38,194 nucleotides of DNA. It comes from a virus. The stretch is taken from positions 1 to 38,194 of the IMG/VR virus record IMGVR_UViG_3300044837_000269; one strand, 5' to 3'. How positions within the stretch are numbered: position 1 is the stretch's first letter; every line of letters starts with the position of its first letter. The notes beneath the pieces were generated by a model. The model was given only the letters and a program-made list of their open reading frames with translations, did not search any database and was not told the origin of the DNA. The position numbers and the translations under genes are program-made. This document shows positions 10,330-38,194 of the stretch, one piece after another.

Positions 10330-11997
10330 TTAGGTAATCGTGAGAGGAAGAATCCAATCTGGCGCGTTGGTGCCCACGGCCAGCCAGTAGTCGTCGCTCA
10401 TTACAACTGTGTCCACGAGAAGCGATTGATTGAATTGAGTAACCAGTGTTGGCTGAAACGATGGGTCAACACCTGCACCGTTTGAGGTCAAGACCTGTCC
10501 GGCTGTACCTACTGCCGTTACGGCGACGGCTGCTGTGCCTTCTCCCACCACAACGCCGTGGGCAGTTAGACTCGTCGCTCCGGTGCCGCCCTGTGGTACT
10601 AACGCTGTCCCAGAGAGGTTCGTGAAGTCTGGTTGTCCGGCAGTAAATACACCCGTCACGCTGTTGTATGAGTTCAGAAAGCTGTTGGCAATCCTCGCGA
10701 AACTAAGCGGCAGAAGGGCTACTCCGCGTACCGTGTAGTAGTTGGCTCCGTCGTAGATAGCCAACATTCCGGTGTTCGGAGGCAGTTGAACAGTCTGATT
10801 GACCTCGTCAATCTTTGAGAGGGAGCCTACGCCGAAAGTGCTAGAGCTTGTGTTCTCTAAGTAGGTGAACCAGTTCGCTGGCAGGCCGGAGACAGGGCCA
10901 GTTGAAACTAATCCGCTGATTTCATAAACATTTATATTGGCACCTGAGATTAACGTTCCCAAGCCAACGGTGAAGCTGATGCTGAAGGTTAGCGTGGGGG
11001 TGCCGGATGTTGCTATAGGCGTAGACCAAATCTGTACGTGTTGCGAGAGTGCGGAAAGTCCCGACACATAGAAATTGTCTGCGGCGGCAACCCGTTTCCA
11101 CGGATTCGCTTGCGTGTCCGAAACGCCAAACACTAAGTTGCCAGCAGCGGGGCCGCCGTTGGTGCCGAGCACCAAAACCAGAGCATTGCCCGCAGTTACC
11201 GGGGCATTAACTGTAAAAGTAGTGCCGGTGCCGAAAGCTCCGCTGATTCCGCTACGATTGGTAACTACCGTCGCTCCGCTGCTGCGGAAAGCACCCATGC
11301 AAGCTGTCCACGCTTGCGCCCCGGTGGGAAGGGTCGCGCTGATAGTTATCGGTGTAGCCCCGGATTGCTGCTTGGAAAGAAATGTTACCGTGCCGCCGCT
11401 GCCTATTAAGCCCGTCCAGCCGGAAGGGGTTCCGAGAGCGTCGAATGAACCGGAAAAAGCGGTGATAGCCAAATCGGAAACCGCACCCGGAGCCAGATTC
11501 AAACCCACCAAGGATGAGAAACCAGCTTGTGATATTGAGCCGTCCACGAAACTGCTTACTGTGCTGCCCGCCGTGGAGGCTCCGTTTGGACTCGGCAGGG
11601 TGATAGCTCCGCCAGAGTTGTTGTCGAACGTAACGAGAGTGTTGAGGTCGGAAGTCTGTAACGTGTAGGACGTTCCAGTCTGCTTGTTGATCTTGATTGA
11701 AGAAGTCGTAGCGGGAATATTGGCGATTGCCTTGTCCACAATCGTTGTGCTGATACCTGCCGCTGCCGCGTTGATCGCAGCATTCGCGCTTGGAGCAAGC
11801 GGAGCCGAACGGAAGCTAGACACGCCTGGACGATTGAACTGTCGAAGAGTGTCCGGCTGATACTGCAACGTCAGAGGCATCGTCGTTCGCAAGAACGGAT
11901 TGATCTGCGTCGTCTGATCGGGAATCGGGGGAGCCTTCGGAACTGTCGGTTCCTTTGCAGCACTCCAGCCTGCCGGAAGTAGAGGAGAGTTAGCCAT
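10330..11997 (-). CDS. Tail fibre / receptor-binding protein (555 aa)
   Basis: The N-terminus (residues 1-70) is Pro-rich and likely the virion-attachment part. Residues 100-140 carry 'YTLQTSDLNTLVTFDNNSG', a common strand motif of phage tail fibres ('tlt..d.g.ltfnns..itltLP'). Residues 269-365 hold a beta-sandwich module shared with the 227-residue protein downstream. The C-terminal part has 'VVGEGTAAVAVTAVGTAGQVLTSNGAG'-like text that is a hallmark of collar or fibre repeats. It follows the nozzle gene, as fibre genes often do. The gene is coupled by TAATG to a possible 35-codon ORF upstream. Confidence 0.75.
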   Translation of the reverse strand: MANSPLLPAGWSAAKEPTVPKAPPIPDQTTQINPFLRTTMPLTLQYQPDTLRQFNRPGVSSFRSAPLAPSANAAINAAAAGISTTIVDKAIANIPATTSSIKINKQTGTSYTLQTSDLNTLVTFDNNSGGAITLPSPNGASTAGSTVSSFVDGSISQAGFSSLVGLNLAPGAVSDLAITAFSGSFDALGTPSGWTGLIGSGGTVTFLSKQQSGATPITISATLPTGAQAWTACMGAFRSSGATVVTNRSGISGAFGTGTTFTVNAPVTAGNALVLVLGTNGGPAAGNLVFGVSDTQANPWKRVAAADNFYVSGLSALSQHVQIWSTPIATSGTPTLTFSISFTVGLGTLISGANINVYEISGLVSTGPVSGLPANWFTYLENTSSSTFGVGSLSKIDEVNQTVQLPPNTGMLAIYDGANYYTVRGVALLPLSFARIANSFLNSYNSVTGVFTAGQPDFTNLSGTALVPQGGTGATSLTAHGVVVGEGTAAVAVTAVGTAGQVLTSNGAGVDPSFQPTLVTQFNQSLLVDTVVMSDDYWLAVGTNAPDWILPLTIT

Positions 11998-27767: not shown

Positions 27768-28213
27768 TGGCATACGTTGGACACGCGCAGTTAGATGCAC
27801 GCGGAGTCTATGCGCTATTTGAGCAAGCAATCTCGCACAAGCTCAAATGGCCTAAGATTCGCCTACAAACTCCGTTTGGTTTGCCTGTTGTTCTGGCAAG
27901 GGCAGGCGAACGCAGCAAGTACTTCGGACAGATTATGGTAACGGACGGCGGACCATTCGCAGCTAACCGTTACTTCGGACGGATTGACTCACACGGCCTC
28001 TTTCACGCTACAGACTCCGCAACGCGCGAAGTCTTCGTCGTGCTTCTCAAACTCGCCACAAGCCCTGTAGAGACCGCACGCGAATACGGAATGCTAACGG
28101 GTAACTGTTGCTTCTGCAATCTCAAGCTAACCGATGCGCGGAGTACTGCGAACGGTTATGGGCCAGTTTGTGCCGAACATTACGGACTGCAATGGGAAAG
28201 AGAGGCCGCATAG
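27767..28213 (+). CDS. DUF6011-like zinc-binding protein (148 aa)
   Basis: The C-terminal part has 'GNCCFCNLKLTDARSTANGYG' with Cys114 and Cys117, followed by Cys135 and His138, a single zinc-binding unit. I recall this pattern (GxCxFC..LxD.RS...GYGP.C) as DUF6011, widespread in phage and plasmid genomes. The N-terminal part is a mixed alpha/beta domain. It is followed by the ArdC gene with only two bases between. Its role is not known; a nucleic acid or DNA-protein context is likely. Confidence 0.7.
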   Translation: MAYVGHAQLDARGVYALFEQAISHKLKWPKIRLQTPFGLPVVLARAGERSKYFGQIMVTDGGPFAANRYFGRIDSHGLFHATDSATREVFVVLLKLATSPVETAREYGMLTGNCCFCNLKLTDARSTANGYGPVCAEHYGLQWEREAA

Positions 28214-28215
28214 CC

Positions 28216-29109
28216 ATGCCGAACGTATACGAGATCGTTACAGAACAGATTATTCAGTCTCTCGAATCTGGCGTTGTACCGTGGCGCAAACCGTGGACTA
28301 GCAATCTGCCTTGCAACCTAATGTCACAGAAAGCCTATCGCGGCATTAACGTCTTCATGCTTGCAACTGCCGGGTATGAGTCGAAGTACTGGTTAACTCT
28401 GAATCAGGCGAACAAGCTAGGCGGACGTGTGAAGCAAGGCGAGAAGTCTCGCCTAGTGACGTTCTGGAACGTCGGACAAGAGAAGTTAAACGCGAAGACT
28501 GGCAAGCTGTCTAAACCGTTTCTCTTGCGCTATTACCGCGTGTTCAATCTGAATCAGACGGACGGCATTAACATTGCTCGCGCGGTATTCGAGAGGAACA
28601 AGCGCGACTCGTTCCAAGCTATAGAGGCCGCTGAATCACTGGCGGAGTCTATGCCCACTCCGCCACGATTCGAGCAATCGGACGCGGCATGGTATCGGCC
28701 TAGCGCGGATTGTGTCGGATTGCCTGCCCGTTCTGCGTTCCATTCTCCGGCAGAGTATTACTCGACACTGTTTCACGAACTAGCGCACGCTACCGGGCAC
28801 GAATCGCGCTTGCATCGTGAGTCGTTCGATAACCATTCACAGTTTGGCAGTGAGTCGTACTCGAAAGAGGAACTAATTGCGGAGATGTCTGCCGCGTTCC
28901 TCTGCGGTCTGGCCGGAATTGAACGCGAGACACTACCAAACTCCGCCGGGTATCTCAAGAATTGGATTACTCGCCTACGCGGAGATAGCAAGCTAATCCT
29001 TACCGCTGCCTCTGCCGCACAGAAAGCCGCTGACTACATCTCCCGCAACGATGCCGCAAACCAGAGGGAAAGCACGTCCGAAGTAGAACAGGAAAGAGAG
29101 GCCGCGTAA
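28216..29109 (+). CDS. ardC: ArdC-like antirestriction protein (297 aa)
   Basis: I start at the ATG at 28216 (MPNVYEIVTEQIIQSLESG); the frame is open upstream but inside the previous gene. The N-terminal ssDNA-binding part has 'GVVPWRKPW' and 'YRGINVFML', followed by 'QANKLGGRVKQGEKS', all typical of ArdC. The C-terminal metallopeptidase part has HELAH-ATGH (residues 187-195) and a downstream EELIAE that can give a third ligand. Length fits ArdC (about 300). It would shield incoming DNA from restriction early in infection. This is a strong family call. Confidence 0.9.
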   Translation: MPNVYEIVTEQIIQSLESGVVPWRKPWTSNLPCNLMSQKAYRGINVFMLATAGYESKYWLTLNQANKLGGRVKQGEKSRLVTFWNVGQEKLNAKTGKLSKPFLLRYYRVFNLNQTDGINIARAVFERNKRDSFQAIEAAESLAESMPTPPRFEQSDAAWYRPSADCVGLPARSAFHSPAEYYSTLFHELAHATGHESRLHRESFDNHSQFGSESYSKEELIAEMSAAFLCGLAGIERETLPNSAGYLKNWITRLRGDSKLILTAASAAQKAADYISRNDAANQRESTSEVEQEREAA

Positions 29110-29765
29110 TGAGTCTATTTAATGCCGGGCAGGAAAGCATGGTCTTTCCTGCCTCACTGTCTGAGAAGTACCGTCCGCGCACGCTAGGCGAGTTTGTAGG
29201 ACTCGACAAGCCTAAGCGCGTGCTCACTAACTTTGCTGCGAAACCCTTTCCTAATGCCGCGTTCCTCTTCGTTGGCTCAAGCGGTACAGGCAAGACAAGC
29301 GCGGCCTTAGCTCTGTGCGAAATGATTCGCGGAGAGTTGCATCATATTCCTAGTCAATCGTGCAATCTCGCCACTATCGAAGACGTTGCACGCCAATGCC
29401 ACTACGTACCGCGCAATAACACCTTACACGTTGTTCTCATTGACGAAATACACGCGGCAAGCAAGGCCGCACAGATGGCGTTGCTGTCTAAGACAGACCG
29501 CACGGCCTTTCCGCCGTCAACGCTATTCATCGGAACCTGTACCACGCTGGACGGCATAGACGCTGCGTTGCTTTCCAGATTCATGCAGTTGCCGTTCTCT
29601 TCGCACGGTATGGCGAAAGAGATTGCCGCGTTGCTTGAGTCTATCTGGCAGAAAGAGGCCGGAAAGACCGCAGACAAGCCTAACTTCTTGCGTGCCGCGC
29701 AAGACTCCAAGAATAACGTGCGCGATGCGGTCAATTCATTGCAAGTCGAGTTGCTCGCGCTATGA
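29109..29765 (+). CDS. Clamp-loader-like AAA+ ATPase (218 aa)
   Basis: The start 'SEKYRPRTLGEFVGLDKPKRVL' is the signature of RFC small subunit/DnaX-like AAA+ proteins. It has Walker A GSSGTGKTS (56-64), Walker B VVLIDEIH (108-115) and an SRF at 156-158 in the arginine-finger region (SRC in clamp loaders). The collar domain is missing, so it is truncated relative to clamp loaders. No polymerase or clamp is in the window, so it may act on the host machinery. It starts in a TAATG overlap with ardC. Confidence 0.8.
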   Translation: MSLFNAGQESMVFPASLSEKYRPRTLGEFVGLDKPKRVLTNFAAKPFPNAAFLFVGSSGTGKTSAALALCEMIRGELHHIPSQSCNLATIEDVARQCHYVPRNNTLHVVLIDEIHAASKAAQMALLSKTDRTAFPPSTLFIGTCTTLDGIDAALLSRFMQLPFSSHGMAKEIAALLESIWQKEAGKTADKPNFLRAAQDSKNNVRDAVNSLQVELLAL

Positions 29766-31406: not shown

Positions 31407-31718
31407 ATGCACAGCATGGCTACAGAACGCATTGATAACAAGTTAAAGCCTCTGCGGGAGAAGCTCGGCCTCGCGCAAGAGGGTGTGGCGCGGAAGCTCA
31501 ACGTCACGTTGCAGACCGTGTTCCGTTGGGATAACGATAAGATTGCCATGCCGGATGAGATGCGCGAGTTATTAATGCTTCGGGCGGCAGGCAAGTATCC
31601 CGCATGGTGCCCGGTGGCGAAGAAGCAAGACGTTGCGCCGGAGTTCATGCAGACGCACATTGCAGGTTGCGGAGTCTGCCGGACGGCGAACGCATGGATT
31701 CAGTCGGGCCTCAAGTAA
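31407..31718 (+). CDS. XRE-family regulator with zinc-like tail (103 aa)
   Basis: The N-terminal half is an HTH of the XRE type: 'KLKPLREKLGLAQEGVARKL' then 'LQTVFRWDNDK', recognition helix about residues 35-45. The C-terminal part has C68, H84, C88 and C91 in 'CPVAKK...THIAGCGVC', which may bind zinc. AGGAG stands before the ATG at 31407. The protein lies next to a perfect palindrome and opposite the winged-helix gene. It is a candidate early/late switch or self-repressor. Confidence 0.75.
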   Translation: MHSMATERIDNKLKPLREKLGLAQEGVARKLNVTLQTVFRWDNDKIAMPDEMRELLMLRAAGKYPAWCPVAKKQDVAPEFMQTHIAGCGVCRTANAWIQSGLK

Positions 31719-34586: not shown

Positions 34587-35324
34587 ATGTCATGGTTCGA
34601 CAAGAAGCCTCTACCGTCTCCAAGTAAGCCAACGCAGAAGTTCTTCACCTATCAACTGAGTCCGGGAGCCGTCATTCCAGATGACTCCGTGGACTCGCTG
34701 CCGACGTGGCAGCCATCAACAGCAATCCCGGACTCGGAAGGTAATGTCTGGACTAACGTCGGAGCGGTAACACTCGAAAACGTGCCGCCGTACAACGTGA
34801 ACGGTGAGTCGCAGCTATTCTTCGACAAGGAAATGATCTCCGCGCTGACGATGCCGCCATATCCTAACTTCGCGATGCCGCCTAAATACGAGAAGAAGCT
34901 CCTCTGTCAACAGTGCTTCACTCCCTGCATTCTGCCGCAAGCGCAAGGGCAGAACTATTGGGAGTGGCGCTGCCTTGCCTGCAACACAAACAACGTCGCC
35001 ATGATCGCCAGCGACGAAGAGAACAAGAAGCTAAACGCCATGACTCAAGCTGTCCAGGAATCCGCGCTGTACGGATGGTCGCAGTACAAGCTGGTCATGC
35101 CGAAAGAACAAGCTGAGGCCATCTGGCCGGAGTCGTTCATTCAACGCTCTAGTCCTGGCTCTCCGCCGTGGCTCGTCAAGAAGACTTCCATCATCACCAG
35201 CCATACCGCACAGATATACCGTGAAGACTGGCTGCGAGATCGCTTTGCAGAACGTCGCGCGGAAGAAGTCCGTAAGCTGGCCGAACAAGAAGAGAGGCAG
35301 GAACAATACGAGAGGTCCGTCTAA
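34587..35324 (+). CDS. Zinc-ribbon protein with acidic-basic tail (245 aa)
   Basis: The N-terminal half is Pro/Ser-rich; the centre has 'LLCQQCFTPC' and 'WRCLACNTNN', a zinc ribbon (CxxC...CxxC). The C-terminus is a charged helix (AERRAEEVRKLAEQEERQEQYERSV). Its stop overlaps the next ATG. Function unknown; nucleic acid binding is plausible. Confidence 0.6.
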   Translation: MSWFDKKPLPSPSKPTQKFFTYQLSPGAVIPDDSVDSLPTWQPSTAIPDSEGNVWTNVGAVTLENVPPYNVNGESQLFFDKEMISALTMPPYPNFAMPPKYEKKLLCQQCFTPCILPQAQGQNYWEWRCLACNTNNVAMIASDEENKKLNAMTQAVQESALYGWSQYKLVMPKEQAEAIWPESFIQRSSPGSPPWLVKKTSIITSHTAQIYREDWLRDRFAERRAEEVRKLAEQEERQEQYERSV

Positions 35325-35677
35325 TGGCTGACATCCTTCGTCGTCTCAAGTACACAAGAAAGAGTTATGAATACCGCGTCGGACTCGCAACGAGTCTGGA
35401 GAAAGTAATCCGGGAGACTGGCAATTCATTGTCGCCGGAAGAGACGACGCTGCTAGAAGTGGACCTGCCTAACTGCATCCGGCAGTGGACCTTCCGCATC
35501 AATAACATCGAAGCACGGATGCGCCGCGTCCGGGAAGCGCGAGATCGTGACAATGGATTCAATACGGGGAGGGAGCCGGAACGTGGGGCACACGCTCCGG
35601 CCTCTGAGGTCACTGCAACTGAGGTCACTGCAACTGAGGAGAAGCCCAATCCGCTACAGTTGTATCGGAGTACCTGA
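35324..35677 (+). CDS. Small basic protein with tandem repeat tail (117 aa)
   Basis: Helical and basic (RRLKYTRKSYEYRV, INNIEARMRRVREARDR), then an acidic tail EVTATEVTATEE encoded by a 15-base unit (GAGGTCACTGCAACT) present twice in tandem (35606-35635). Its last 53 bases overlap the 3' end of the minus-strand pilin gene. Function not known. Confidence 0.55.
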   Translation: MADILRRLKYTRKSYEYRVGLATSLEKVIRETGNSLSPEETTLLEVDLPNCIRQWTFRINNIEARMRRVREARDRDNGFNTGREPERGAHAPASEVTATEVTATEEKPNPLQLYRST

Positions 35678-36167
35678 GAATCCCGGTAGAGTCCGCGTAA
35701 TAGCTGCGGTTCCCTGCCGGAACTGCTGGCCATGCTGAGAACGTCCACCATGCTCCGTTAGTAGAGTACGAGTAGGTGTAAGTCCCGGCGACTGTGACCG
35801 TACCATCTGCGGGTATGATCGGAGCAACTCCCGGACATGACACCTTGTTTGCATTGCAGATCGCGAGAGCCAAGTTAGCGTCCCTCACTGCCTGCACTCT
35901 ATTCCTTGCTCCTCTACCGTCCATCATTCGCTTCACTGCTACCGGAGAAGGCGCAACAATGGAAGCTAGAATCGTGACGATGAGACAGCAGATCATTAGT
36001 TCCAAGAGACTGAACCCGGCCTGATTGCTTACGTACCCTGTCCGCCCACCTGCATACTGCCTCGGTGCTGGCTTCGAGTTGATGCGAACAAGCATCCATC
36101 CGAAGTAGAGAACGCCGAACACTGCCAACGCCGCCATAAATGCCGACACTCCAAGAATCCAATTCAT
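35625..36167 (-). CDS. Type IV pilin-like protein with transmembrane leader (180 aa)
   Basis: The start at 36167 is fixed by AAAGGAGA seven bases upstream. Residues 4-27 form a transmembrane helix, residues 30-50 a basic linker, and 51-52 a prepilin peptidase site G|FSLLE (conserved Glu at +5) followed by the hydrophobic helix 'LELMICCLIVTILASIVAP'. Usual prepilin leaders are 6-25 residues; here it is 51 with its own membrane helix. The C-terminal domain has two cysteines and strands like 'TYSYSTNGAWWTFSA'. It is probably a minor pilin or decoy. Its 3' end overlaps a plus-strand gene. Confidence 0.75.
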   Translation of the reverse strand: MNWILGVSAFMAALAVFGVLYFGWMLVRINSKPAPRQYAGGRTGYVSNQAGFSLLELMICCLIVTILASIVAPSPVAVKRMMDGRGARNRVQAVRDANLALAICNANKVSCPGVAPIIPADGTVTVAGTYTYSYSTNGAWWTFSAWPAVPAGNRSYYADSTGILRYSDTTVADWASPQLQ

Positions 36168-36190
36168 AACTGAATCTCCTTTCAAGAGTT

Positions 36191-36220
36191 GAAGGCCACG
36201 CTTTGAACGTGGCCTTCTTT
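36191..36220 (+). terminator. 10-bp hairpin with short T-run
   Basis: GAAGGCCACG (36191-36200), a 7-base loop and CGTGGCCTTC (36208-36217) form a perfect stem, followed by TTT on the plus strand. It would stop plus-strand transcription coming from the 35 kb genes. It also lies in the gap between the two pilin genes (minus strand), where it may reduce expression of the second pilin. Confidence 0.55.
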
Positions 36221-36239
36221 GCGTTGCGTTGGAGTGGGA

Positions 36240-36758
36240 CTACTGGCCGAGAGGAGTGTCGTTTGCGCCTGCTGCCGAACCCTGTGCGTAGCGAATGATG
36301 CCTGTCTCGTTGGTGAAGAAGAAACGATTCGCCGTAGTCTTGTTGGGGTCTGGAGCGGCCTTGATGCTGTAGTGCGAAGCGTCGGTCAAGGTCGCCGTGT
36401 ACTTGTAGCCGTTGAGCGTGCCTGAGCCGTCGAGTCCGGTTGCAACGCTGTTGTCGAGCAAACAGGATGAGCTTGCATTTGGCTGTGTTGTACCGCAGGT
36501 ACCGCCGAGAGCCGCCTGAGCCGATGGGAACCCGTCATACAGAGACGAGTACGTTTGCATTGCGTTGTTGAAACCACGCAAGCTGCTGGCTGCCGCGCCT
36601 TGTGTTGCTGCCGCCTTCGCTGAGAGCAAGTTCGGAATCGCAATCGCCGCAATGACGAGAATAATCGCCACGACGATGAGTAGCTCGATTAGGGAGAATC
36701 CCTTCTGGCCCTTTCTACGAGCCTGACGACGCTTGCTGCCTTCTTGATTCGTATACAT
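36240..36758 (-). CDS. pilA: Type IV pilin, PilA-like (172 aa)
   Basis: A 20-residue basic leader ends in KG|FSLIELLIVVAIILVIAAIAIPNLL, the textbook prepilin motif with Glu at +5. The rest, 'SSLRGFNNAMQTYSSLYDGFPSAQAALGGT' and '...GIIRYA', follows acidobacterial PilA proteins as I remember them; a Cys pair (about residues 90 and 103) is present. GAAGGA stands upstream of the ATG. It would be cleaved by PilD and assembled by host T4P machinery. That it is carried by a phage is the main oddity. Confidence 0.9.
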   Translation of the reverse strand: MYTNQEGSKRRQARRKGQKGFSLIELLIVVAIILVIAAIAIPNLLSAKAAATQGAAASSLRGFNNAMQTYSSLYDGFPSAQAALGGTCGTTQPNASSSCLLDNSVATGLDGSGTLNGYKYTATLTDASHYSIKAAPDPNKTTANRFFFTNETGIIRYAQGSAAGANDTPLGQ

Positions 36759-36797
36759 TTCGTTGTATCCTTCTAGTCGCAGTTATGATTGACAGGT

Positions 36798-36891
36798 GGG
36801 GCACGGCTAAGTCTTCGAGGCTCTCCGTGTCCCATTTCTGTGTTGCTCTATGCCGGGGATGCTGCGCCGCCTTCCCCGACTACCGCAGAGC
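36798..36891 (-). promoter_or_regulatory. Structured leader between the operon start and pilA
   Basis: Two strong hairpins lie in the 146-base gap. The first (36798-36833) has a 9-pair outer stem GGGGCACGG/CCGTGTCCC, an internal loop, a 5-pair inner stem and a TCG loop. The second (36845-36891) joins GCTCT with AGAGC and CGGGGA with TCCCCG. No T-run follows either. They could attenuate pilA, store a cis-acting signal, or stabilise the mRNA. Confidence 0.5.
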
Positions 36892-36904
36892 AAACTCGAT
36901 GGGT

Positions 36905-37081
36905 CTAGCTGATTGCTGGTATGTTCTGTGGTACGACTGCCGCTGGCCTGCCCCAAGCATCTTTGTAGAGCTTGTGAATCAAGTCTTTCTGTTGAGAGAT
37001 CGTGCCGTTCTGCATGACGATTACGCCGGACAGAACAATCACGCCCATAACAGCGACTAGCAAAGCGAGTGGTGATTTCAT
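36905..37081 (-). CDS. Small membrane protein in the pilin operon (58 aa)
   Basis: Begins at the ATG at 37081 with GAAAGGAGA just upstream and overlaps the previous stop by ATGA. Residues 4-24 form one hydrophobic helix 'PLALLVAVMGVIVLSGVIVM', followed by a short basic-polar tail. No pilin motif. It may be an accessory of the pilus or an inner-membrane factor of the phage. Confidence 0.6.
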   Translation of the reverse strand: MKSPLALLVAVMGVIVLSGVIVMQNGTISQQKDLIHKLYKDAWGRPAAVVPQNIPAIS

Positions 37082-37542
37082 CGGTCTCCTTTCTTGTAAT
37101 CTGCGGAAGTTCGTTCACTGCGGTACGGGAAGCGCGGAGGTTCCGGCTTCTTCGCTTCTCCGGTCATGCCGGAATAAGATGTGAGGTACTTCATTACGCC
37201 AGTCGTCGGCGCTGGCTTAGGCAGAGGCTTGCGACGTTGGACAACAGTGGCCGCGCGTGCCGCTGGCGTGATGGTCTCCCGATGGACAACGGGAACTAGC
37301 TGTGTGACGCCGGGTTGGGCATTCGGCTTGCCGTCCAAGAACTTAGCTATCGCTTCCGCCAGGAGACGATGCCCGTAGGGAGTCGCCAGACTCCGCACTG
37401 CTGTCCATATCTCTTTCGGTGGCGAGTATGAAATGTCTTTACGGAAGTAGAGATCGGGGCCGGACGCTTGCGACTTGCAGAGGACAAACGCAGTGGTGAC
37501 GCTGGCCGGGACTTCGCCTGGGAAGAACTGTTCTTCACTCAT
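37078..37542 (-). CDS. Uncharacterised protein in the pilin operon (154 aa)
   Basis: A mixed alpha/beta N-terminal half with 'AVRSLATPYGHRLLAEAIAKFLDG', then a basic Pro-rich tail (KPLPKPAPTT..., ...PPRFPYRSERTS). No known motif. Coupled by ATGA overlaps to both neighbours. It is part of the same transcript as the pilins. Confidence 0.6.
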   Translation of the reverse strand: MSEEQFFPGEVPASVTTAFVLCKSQASGPDLYFRKDISYSPPKEIWTAVRSLATPYGHRLLAEAIAKFLDGKPNAQPGVTQLVPVVHRETITPAARAATVVQRRKPLPKPAPTTGVMKYLTSYSGMTGEAKKPEPPRFPYRSERTSADYKKGDR

Positions 37543-37739
37543 TGAATGTTGCCGCTCACGTAGTCGCGCATGAAGGTCACGTAAGCGGTGGTCTCGTTGA
37601 GCGGATAGATTGCGGTGCTCGAAACAATGATGAATTCGTTCTCGAAGCTAACTAGTTCTTCGGAGAGACGGAGCAAGCGCGGTGAATCTTTGAAGTCTGT
37701 ACCTGCGATGTCGTCTAGGATTTGTTCGCGTGTTCTCAT
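37539..37739 (-). CDS. First gene of the pilin operon (66 aa)
   Basis: I use the ATG at 37739 (MRTREQILDDIAGTDF) because it is the first ATG; a TTG at 37751 is in frame. The product has a helical start (LRLSEELVSFENEF) and a strand-rich end. No motif is recognised. A promoter lies 39 bases upstream. Function unknown. Confidence 0.55.
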   Translation of the reverse strand: MRTREQILDDIAGTDFKDSPRLLRLSEELVSFENEFIIVSSTAIYPLNETTAYVTFMRDYVSGNIQ

Positions 37740-37777
37740 TGGGCTGGGCAAAGTGAGTGTGACTACTTACGCGCATG

Positions 37778-37805
37778 AACATACCACGGATTAGCGCATA
37801 GTCAA
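37778..37805 (-). promoter_or_regulatory. Promoter of the pilin operon
   Basis: On the minus strand TTGACT (37800-37805) and TATGTT (37778-37783) are 16 bases apart; each is close to consensus. Transcription would start near 37770 and read 37739 down to 35625. The facing gene at 37859 is divergent. Confidence 0.5.
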
Positions 37806-37858
37806 GTACCTATTATATCCCTTACTTTAGTTCAGTACTTTATGCGAGAATACAAGAC

Positions 37859-38194
37859 ATGGCAGAACAGATTCGCCTCACCTTAACTGTGGACGCTGGC
37901 GTTAAGAAGCTAATCGAAGAGTCCGCTCACAAGTATGCGAACGATAATGTGTCCGCTTATGTTCGCGGACTAGTCGTGTTTCATGCCTTACTAGATGGTC
38001 GAAGTACAGGCCATGCAGACATTCCCGGCTGGCTCCTAGCGGAGAATCCTCTGGCCTGCATTGAGTACATGCGCGAGGCGCGTAAGCACTGGTTCACTGA
38101 ACTAGAACACGCTGTGGAAGAAACCGCAAAGCGGTTCGAGAAGGAGTTCGGGAAACACCTCTCGAAGCAACTCTCGAAGCCCGTCAATAAATAA
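37859..38194 (+). CDS. Ribbon-helix-helix-like small protein (111 aa)
   Basis: The N-terminal part 'IRLTLTVDAGVKKLIEESAHKYANDNVSAYVRGLVVF' has the strand-helix-helix look of RHH DNA-binding proteins. A charged helix (about residues 75-105) follows. It is divergent from the pilin operon, so it could regulate it. Its TAA ends the window; in a circular map the exported-protein gene would follow immediately. Confidence 0.55.
   Translation: MAEQIRLTLTVDAGVKKLIEESAHKYANDNVSAYVRGLVVFHALLDGRSTGHADIPGWLLAENPLACIEYMREARKHWFTELEHAVEETAKRFEKEFGKHLSKQLSKPVNK

Follow-up and report, generated by a model that had tools for sequence, protein, structure and literature searches.

Does a tailed phage carry its own type IV pilins and, if so, what could they do in the infected cell? 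The question is raised by an operon near one end of a single linear IMG/VR sequence of 38,194 bases, the whole of which is the window analyzed here. The operon lies on the minus strand at positions 35625-37739, in convergent orientation to the phage early genes. It encodes, in order of transcription, an ORF of about 66 amino acids (aa), one of 154 aa, a membrane protein of 58 aa, and then pilin 1 and pilin 2. All of the parts described in a sequence-only reading of this DNA, namely two prepilins sharing a minus-strand operon with a small membrane protein and two unknowns, were found in their places. That reading took the surrounding genome to be a podovirus and proposed that the pilins are phage-borne.

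The remainder of the genome resembles that of Tunturi_3, an isolated phage of Tunturiibacter (phylum Acidobacteriota). Matches to Tunturi_3 include TerL (31%), portal (35%), capsid (35%) and several further tail-region genes, and this kinship supports the view that the record represents a Tunturi_3-related podovirus of soil Acidobacteriota. Electron microscopy shows Tunturi_3 to be a podovirus (PMC11924767), in agreement with the earlier description. Because of the Tunturi_3 match, the host of the virus is probably a member of the Acidobacteriota, and the affinities of the pilins agree. A profile built from two portals retrieved 68 related IMG/VR loci, the nearest of which (L126/G338) has a portal 56% identical to that of the record and shares only the structural half with it. 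No nucleotide match to known phages was found for the 28-38 kb region, a single-sequence scan of viral contigs gave no close relatives of the terminase, and the portal had no match in 297 Acidobacteriota genomes in a search run without a positive control. The record has no terminal repeats. It carries a tRNA-Gln (TTG) at 1165-1237, unlike host tRNA-Gln, and the related G338 (L194) has 28 tRNA genes. At 28108-29765, an ArdC-type anti-restriction protein is followed by a clamp-loader AAA ATPase.

Pilins 1 and 2 are the only two matches to the Pfam N_methyl profile in the record. Both exceed its cut-off of 21.2 bits and both retain G-1, F+1, E+5 and P+22, as expected from the claim that their peptidase sites are intact. 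Pilin 1 (36240-36758, minus strand; 35.3 bits) is a 172-aa type IV prepilin with the site G↓FSLIE. Its AlphaFold model (mean pLDDT 91) is consistent with the long N-terminal helix and beta-sheet globular domain of a type IV pilin, with Thermus PilA4 as the best PDB match (E 1e-3), and the protein has the look of an ordinary pilin that is able to assemble. Pilin 2 (35625-36167, minus strand; 28.8 bits) is a 180-aa prepilin with the site G↓FSLLE. An AAGGAG upstream makes the ATG at 36167 the most likely start, and with this start a transmembrane helix (residues 3-30) precedes the prepilin site. A basic linker between this extra helix and the cleavage site is rich in Arg and Lys and would place the G↓F site at the cytoplasmic face of the membrane. 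In an alignment of 30 rows, the extra helix is missing from all 29 other sequences, host pilins included. Pilin 2 is strongly diverged and lacks a segment conserved in its pilin family; its AlphaFold model (mean pLDDT 84) consists of a helix followed by strands, with weak PDB matches. The single-sequence scan of viral contigs found no close relatives of pilin 2, and a fold search among viral models gave nothing meaningful.

These peculiarities of pilin 2, the extra helix with its Arg/Lys-rich residues and the divergence with loss of a conserved segment, speak for a rival reading as a poison: tethered by its helix, pilin 2 would jam or cap the pilus assembly platform and so remove the pili, with pilin 1 or the 58-aa protein assisting. 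Loss of pili is a known route of phage exclusion (PMC11436027). Among phage products that act on the host type IV pilus and thereby exclude superinfection are Tip, Aqs1, Gp21 and Pf4 pVII (PMC11436027). Tip and Aqs1 bring about this outcome by blocking PilB. All four inhibit or repress pilus components and, unlike the two pilins of this operon, are not pilins. However, the apparent competence of pilin 1 and the intact cleavage site of pilin 2 do not fit such a role, for which one gene would suffice, and we consider it improbable.

The three genes ahead of the pilins have no family match. The first (37539-37739, minus strand) is about 66 aa long from its first ATG at 37739, extends as a 70-aa ORF to a TTG at 37751, and shares 4 bp with the gene that follows; overlaps of this length occur at two gene junctions of the operon. 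Its function is unassigned, as is that of the 154-aa protein (37078-37542, minus strand). The small membrane protein of 58 aa (36905-37081, minus strand) has one hydrophobic segment (hydropathy 2.9), and strong Shine-Dalgarno sequences stand ahead of its ORF and of pilin 2. A candidate extended -10 promoter (TTGACT-16-TATGTT with TG) on the minus strand at 37778-37805 is correctly placed and is the only promoter-like site in 35000-38194, a count no higher than chance would give (1 site, against 1.3 expected). Between the pilin genes, at 36191-36217, lies a hairpin (GAAGGCCACG...CGTGGCCTTC) with a fold z-score of -3.4; a terminator scan, whose total count was at chance level, gave it a terminator-like tail on the plus strand. 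On the minus strand the hairpin may set the relative output of pilin 1 and pilin 2. Neither a Peptidase_A24 (prepilin peptidase) nor a T2SSE (PilB/PilT pilus ATPase) domain was found in the record, which is possibly incomplete, so any function of the operon must use the machinery of the host.

Pilins of this family are abundant in the presumed hosts. Homologs of pilin 1 were detected in 290 of the 297 Acidobacteriota genomes, as many as ten in a single genome; the closest are 46-49% identical over almost the full length. Pilin 2 is a distant full-length relative of the Acidobacteriota pilins (about 17-33% identity), and identity to any host pilin is at most about 50% for pilin 1 and 33% for pilin 2. 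The comparison with host pilins by alignment and tree, proposed earlier, places both proteins in the same family as diverged members on long branches (0.96 and 4.3; median 0.36). They share full-length homology, motifs and the C-terminal pattern with the chromosomal paralogs, and differ from them in this divergence and in the additional helix of pilin 2. In 12 host neighborhoods read by eye, single or tandem pilin genes stood amid ordinary chromosomal genes, and in none of the 12 were the other genes of the operon found beside them.

Such abundance raises the possibility that the operon is host DNA, the record being a trimmed provirus or a chimera whose outer 2.6 kb, with the operon, is Acidobacteriota chromosome. 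The record begins exactly at the ATG of one ORF (1-504) and ends exactly at the TAA stop of another in the same direction (37859-38194). Both ends being flush with ORFs is unique to this record among 38 whole IMG/VR records checked, and by comparison with the 37 others the record was probably trimmed at gene borders; provirus callers cut records in this way. The operon falls within the last 2.6 kb, near a cut end. Moreover, the host relatives of the pilins often stand alone or in tandem pairs, and the codon usage of three end ORFs (1-504, 529-1035 and 37859-38194), each with few codons, is closer to that of the best host locus than to that of the phage late genes. The earlier reading had called for a search of related phage contigs for the operon: none of 45 related virus records, many of them fragments, encodes an N_methyl protein, nor does any of Tunturi_2 to Tunturi_5. 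Absence of the pilin from relatives indicates that the operon is not conserved across these phages.

Other observations argue against a host origin. Under the phage late-gene table, operon and early genes receive the same codon-usage score (-1.193 each), which is better than that of any of 69 host loci (best -1.218, median -1.308), although by a modest margin. The 154-aa gene had no match in any of the 297 Acidobacteriota genomes, whereas the same kind of search matched pilin 1 in 290 of them; the left-end ORF 1-504 was also unmatched there, both results being limited by the genome sample. The tRNA-Gln near the left end has only a weak match in 2 of 199 host genomes, there is no att-like repeat near it, no host tRNA was seen in the record and no integrase was found. 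The long branches of the pilins, with host identity no higher than about 50%, argue against a recent host flank. The sequence-only reading had relied instead on a 53-bp overlap (35625-35677) between pilin 2 and a phage-like gene. The overlap itself is real, but the overlapping ORF (35324-35677) has no convincing phage family (best PHROG E 0.009), so that the overlap alone is weak evidence of phage linkage. Within this convergent ORF, a 15-bp tandem repeat (2.4 copies, 35604-35639) spans the stop codon of pilin 2. The preference for phage over host DNA is nevertheless upheld on other grounds, namely codon usage, the absence of the 154-aa gene from hosts, and independent phage examples (below). 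On balance the operon is quite likely linked to the phage and a host flank is unlikely, with some doubt left by the trimmed ends and by the lack of pilins in related records.

If the operon belongs to the phage, its pilins might still serve the host rather than oppose other phages, by changing how a long-lived infected cell adheres, moves over surfaces or takes up DNA. Its organization as a separate transcription unit, the abundant and variable pilin paralogs of Acidobacteriota, and a gene for an HTH repressor-like protein at 31407-31718 that hints at a non-lytic phase are all compatible with such a benefit. However, with no integrase found, a lysogenic role lacks support from the record, and the cultured relatives and neighbors Tunturi_2 to Tunturi_5 are without pilins; a host-benefit function therefore appears quite improbable.

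Two viral contigs unrelated to the phage of this record carry Acidobacteriota-type pilins. In L003 such a pilin adjoins HNH, TerS, TerL, portal and capsid genes. In L087 a pilin pair follows predicted tail genes and precedes an integrase; the second member (10706-11140), directly after the first, is a degenerate pilin-like ORF without a Pfam match. Both contigs thus resemble the record in having the same pilin family within phage DNA, and L087 also in having a second pilin-like ORF. They differ in that their pilins lie beside structural or lysis-type genes and elsewhere in the tree, in which many forks are poorly supported. Because the pilins sit in different parts of the tree, their sequences suggest separate captures by the phages of the record, L003 and L087. 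Other candidates were set aside as uninformative for the operon: L084 and L085 carry unrelated pilin-like or pseudopilin-like genes, and L086 and L088 carry pilin-like cassettes of another pilin group. The latter cassettes are arranged in tandem at contig ends (L086 8952-10561; L088 250-1900), some without a start, and those of L086 adjoin two recombinase-like genes, so that shuffling of pilin variants is possible.

The sequence-only reading knew of no tailed phage with pilins of its own. Precedents exist, however. According to a review (PMC12826054), lysogens of the Pseudomonas phage JBD68 express P-FimU, a phage-encoded minor pilin that replaces host FimU in pili that still work, and that is believed to keep out similar phages arriving later. 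We found prepilin-type genes, probably of the P-FimU kind, in F10, Ostro, PAN70 and LESphi2/3, and N_methyl proteins also in the isolated tailed phages Acibel004 and PhiW-14; the JBD68 gene matched by tblastn is, we infer, that for P-FimU. A tblastn search of phages with pilin 1 gave no match, probably because the low-complexity filter masks its hydrophobic N-terminus, and an N_methyl profile search was used in its place. With F10 gp11 standing in as a relative of P-FimU, BLASTP gave neither pilin a full-length match: pilin 1 aligns over 43 N-terminal residues and pilin 2 over about 80 residues (30%). Since these matches do not extend beyond the N-terminal region, the analogy we draw is that the operon pilins may work like P-FimU, not that either is a P-FimU. 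In JBD68, and probably here, a tailed phage encodes a pilin subunit, whereas P-FimU is a FimU-type minor pilin from a system in another phylum and the record holds a pair of pilins in a distinct operon of five genes. The idea of phage-borne pilins is thus known, and the two-pilin Acidobacteriota version is new.

F10 gp11 is a single gene between the major tail protein and tape measure genes. Pilin-like genes in the tail regions of other phages (F10 gp11; L093) might indicate that pilins are components of the phage particle. For the present operon we regard this as highly improbable, because it stands alone, distant from the structural genes, and because pilins require PilD and a membrane. The review describes P-FimU as part of the pilus (PMC12826054), yet the F10-type gene that matches JBD68 lies in the tail region.

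A phage location together with a pilus-altering role remains the best-supported reading of the operon. We give about even chances to a specific form of it, modeled on P-FimU, in which a podovirus of Acidobacteriota uses a self-contained accessory ("moron") operon to provide its host with two type IV pilin subunits for a receptor swap. A PilD-type peptidase of the host would cleave both prepilins, and the products would enter the host pilus system, where they would replace or dilute host subunits while the cell keeps, or partly keeps, its pili. The altered pili would no longer be recognized by related phages, giving superinfection exclusion as for P-FimU. The intergenic hairpin may hold pilin 2, the odd subunit, below the level of pilin 1. 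A broader proposal, which we advance tentatively and with some doubt, is that Acidobacteriota phages (those of the record, L003 and L087) have captured pilins of their hosts again and again and use them to exchange or jam pilus subunits, independently of P-FimU, the version in this record being a two-subunit operon whose pilin 2 has a membrane-tethering helix.

If the receptor-swap reading is correct, the exchange of receptor components by phage pilins reaches a second bacterial phylum, a different type of phage and a different pilin family, and is not a peculiarity of Pseudomonas. A further implication would be that phages of Acidobacteriota use the pilus as a receptor. Little is known of the phage biology of these bacteria, which are abundant in soil, and Tunturiibacter with its Tunturi phages offers a cultured system.

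Two further kinds of prepilin-like gene were noted among the viral contigs. In L093 (5141-6199) and L095 (2650-3708), a prepilin-like protein containing a Gly-Ser repeat region is encoded between apparent tail chaperone and tape-measure genes, a position that corresponds to that of the F10 prepilin-type gene. In L091 (4018-4485), a true PF00114 pilin scoring 64.7 bits lies in an apparent phage tail-fiber and glycosyltransferase region.
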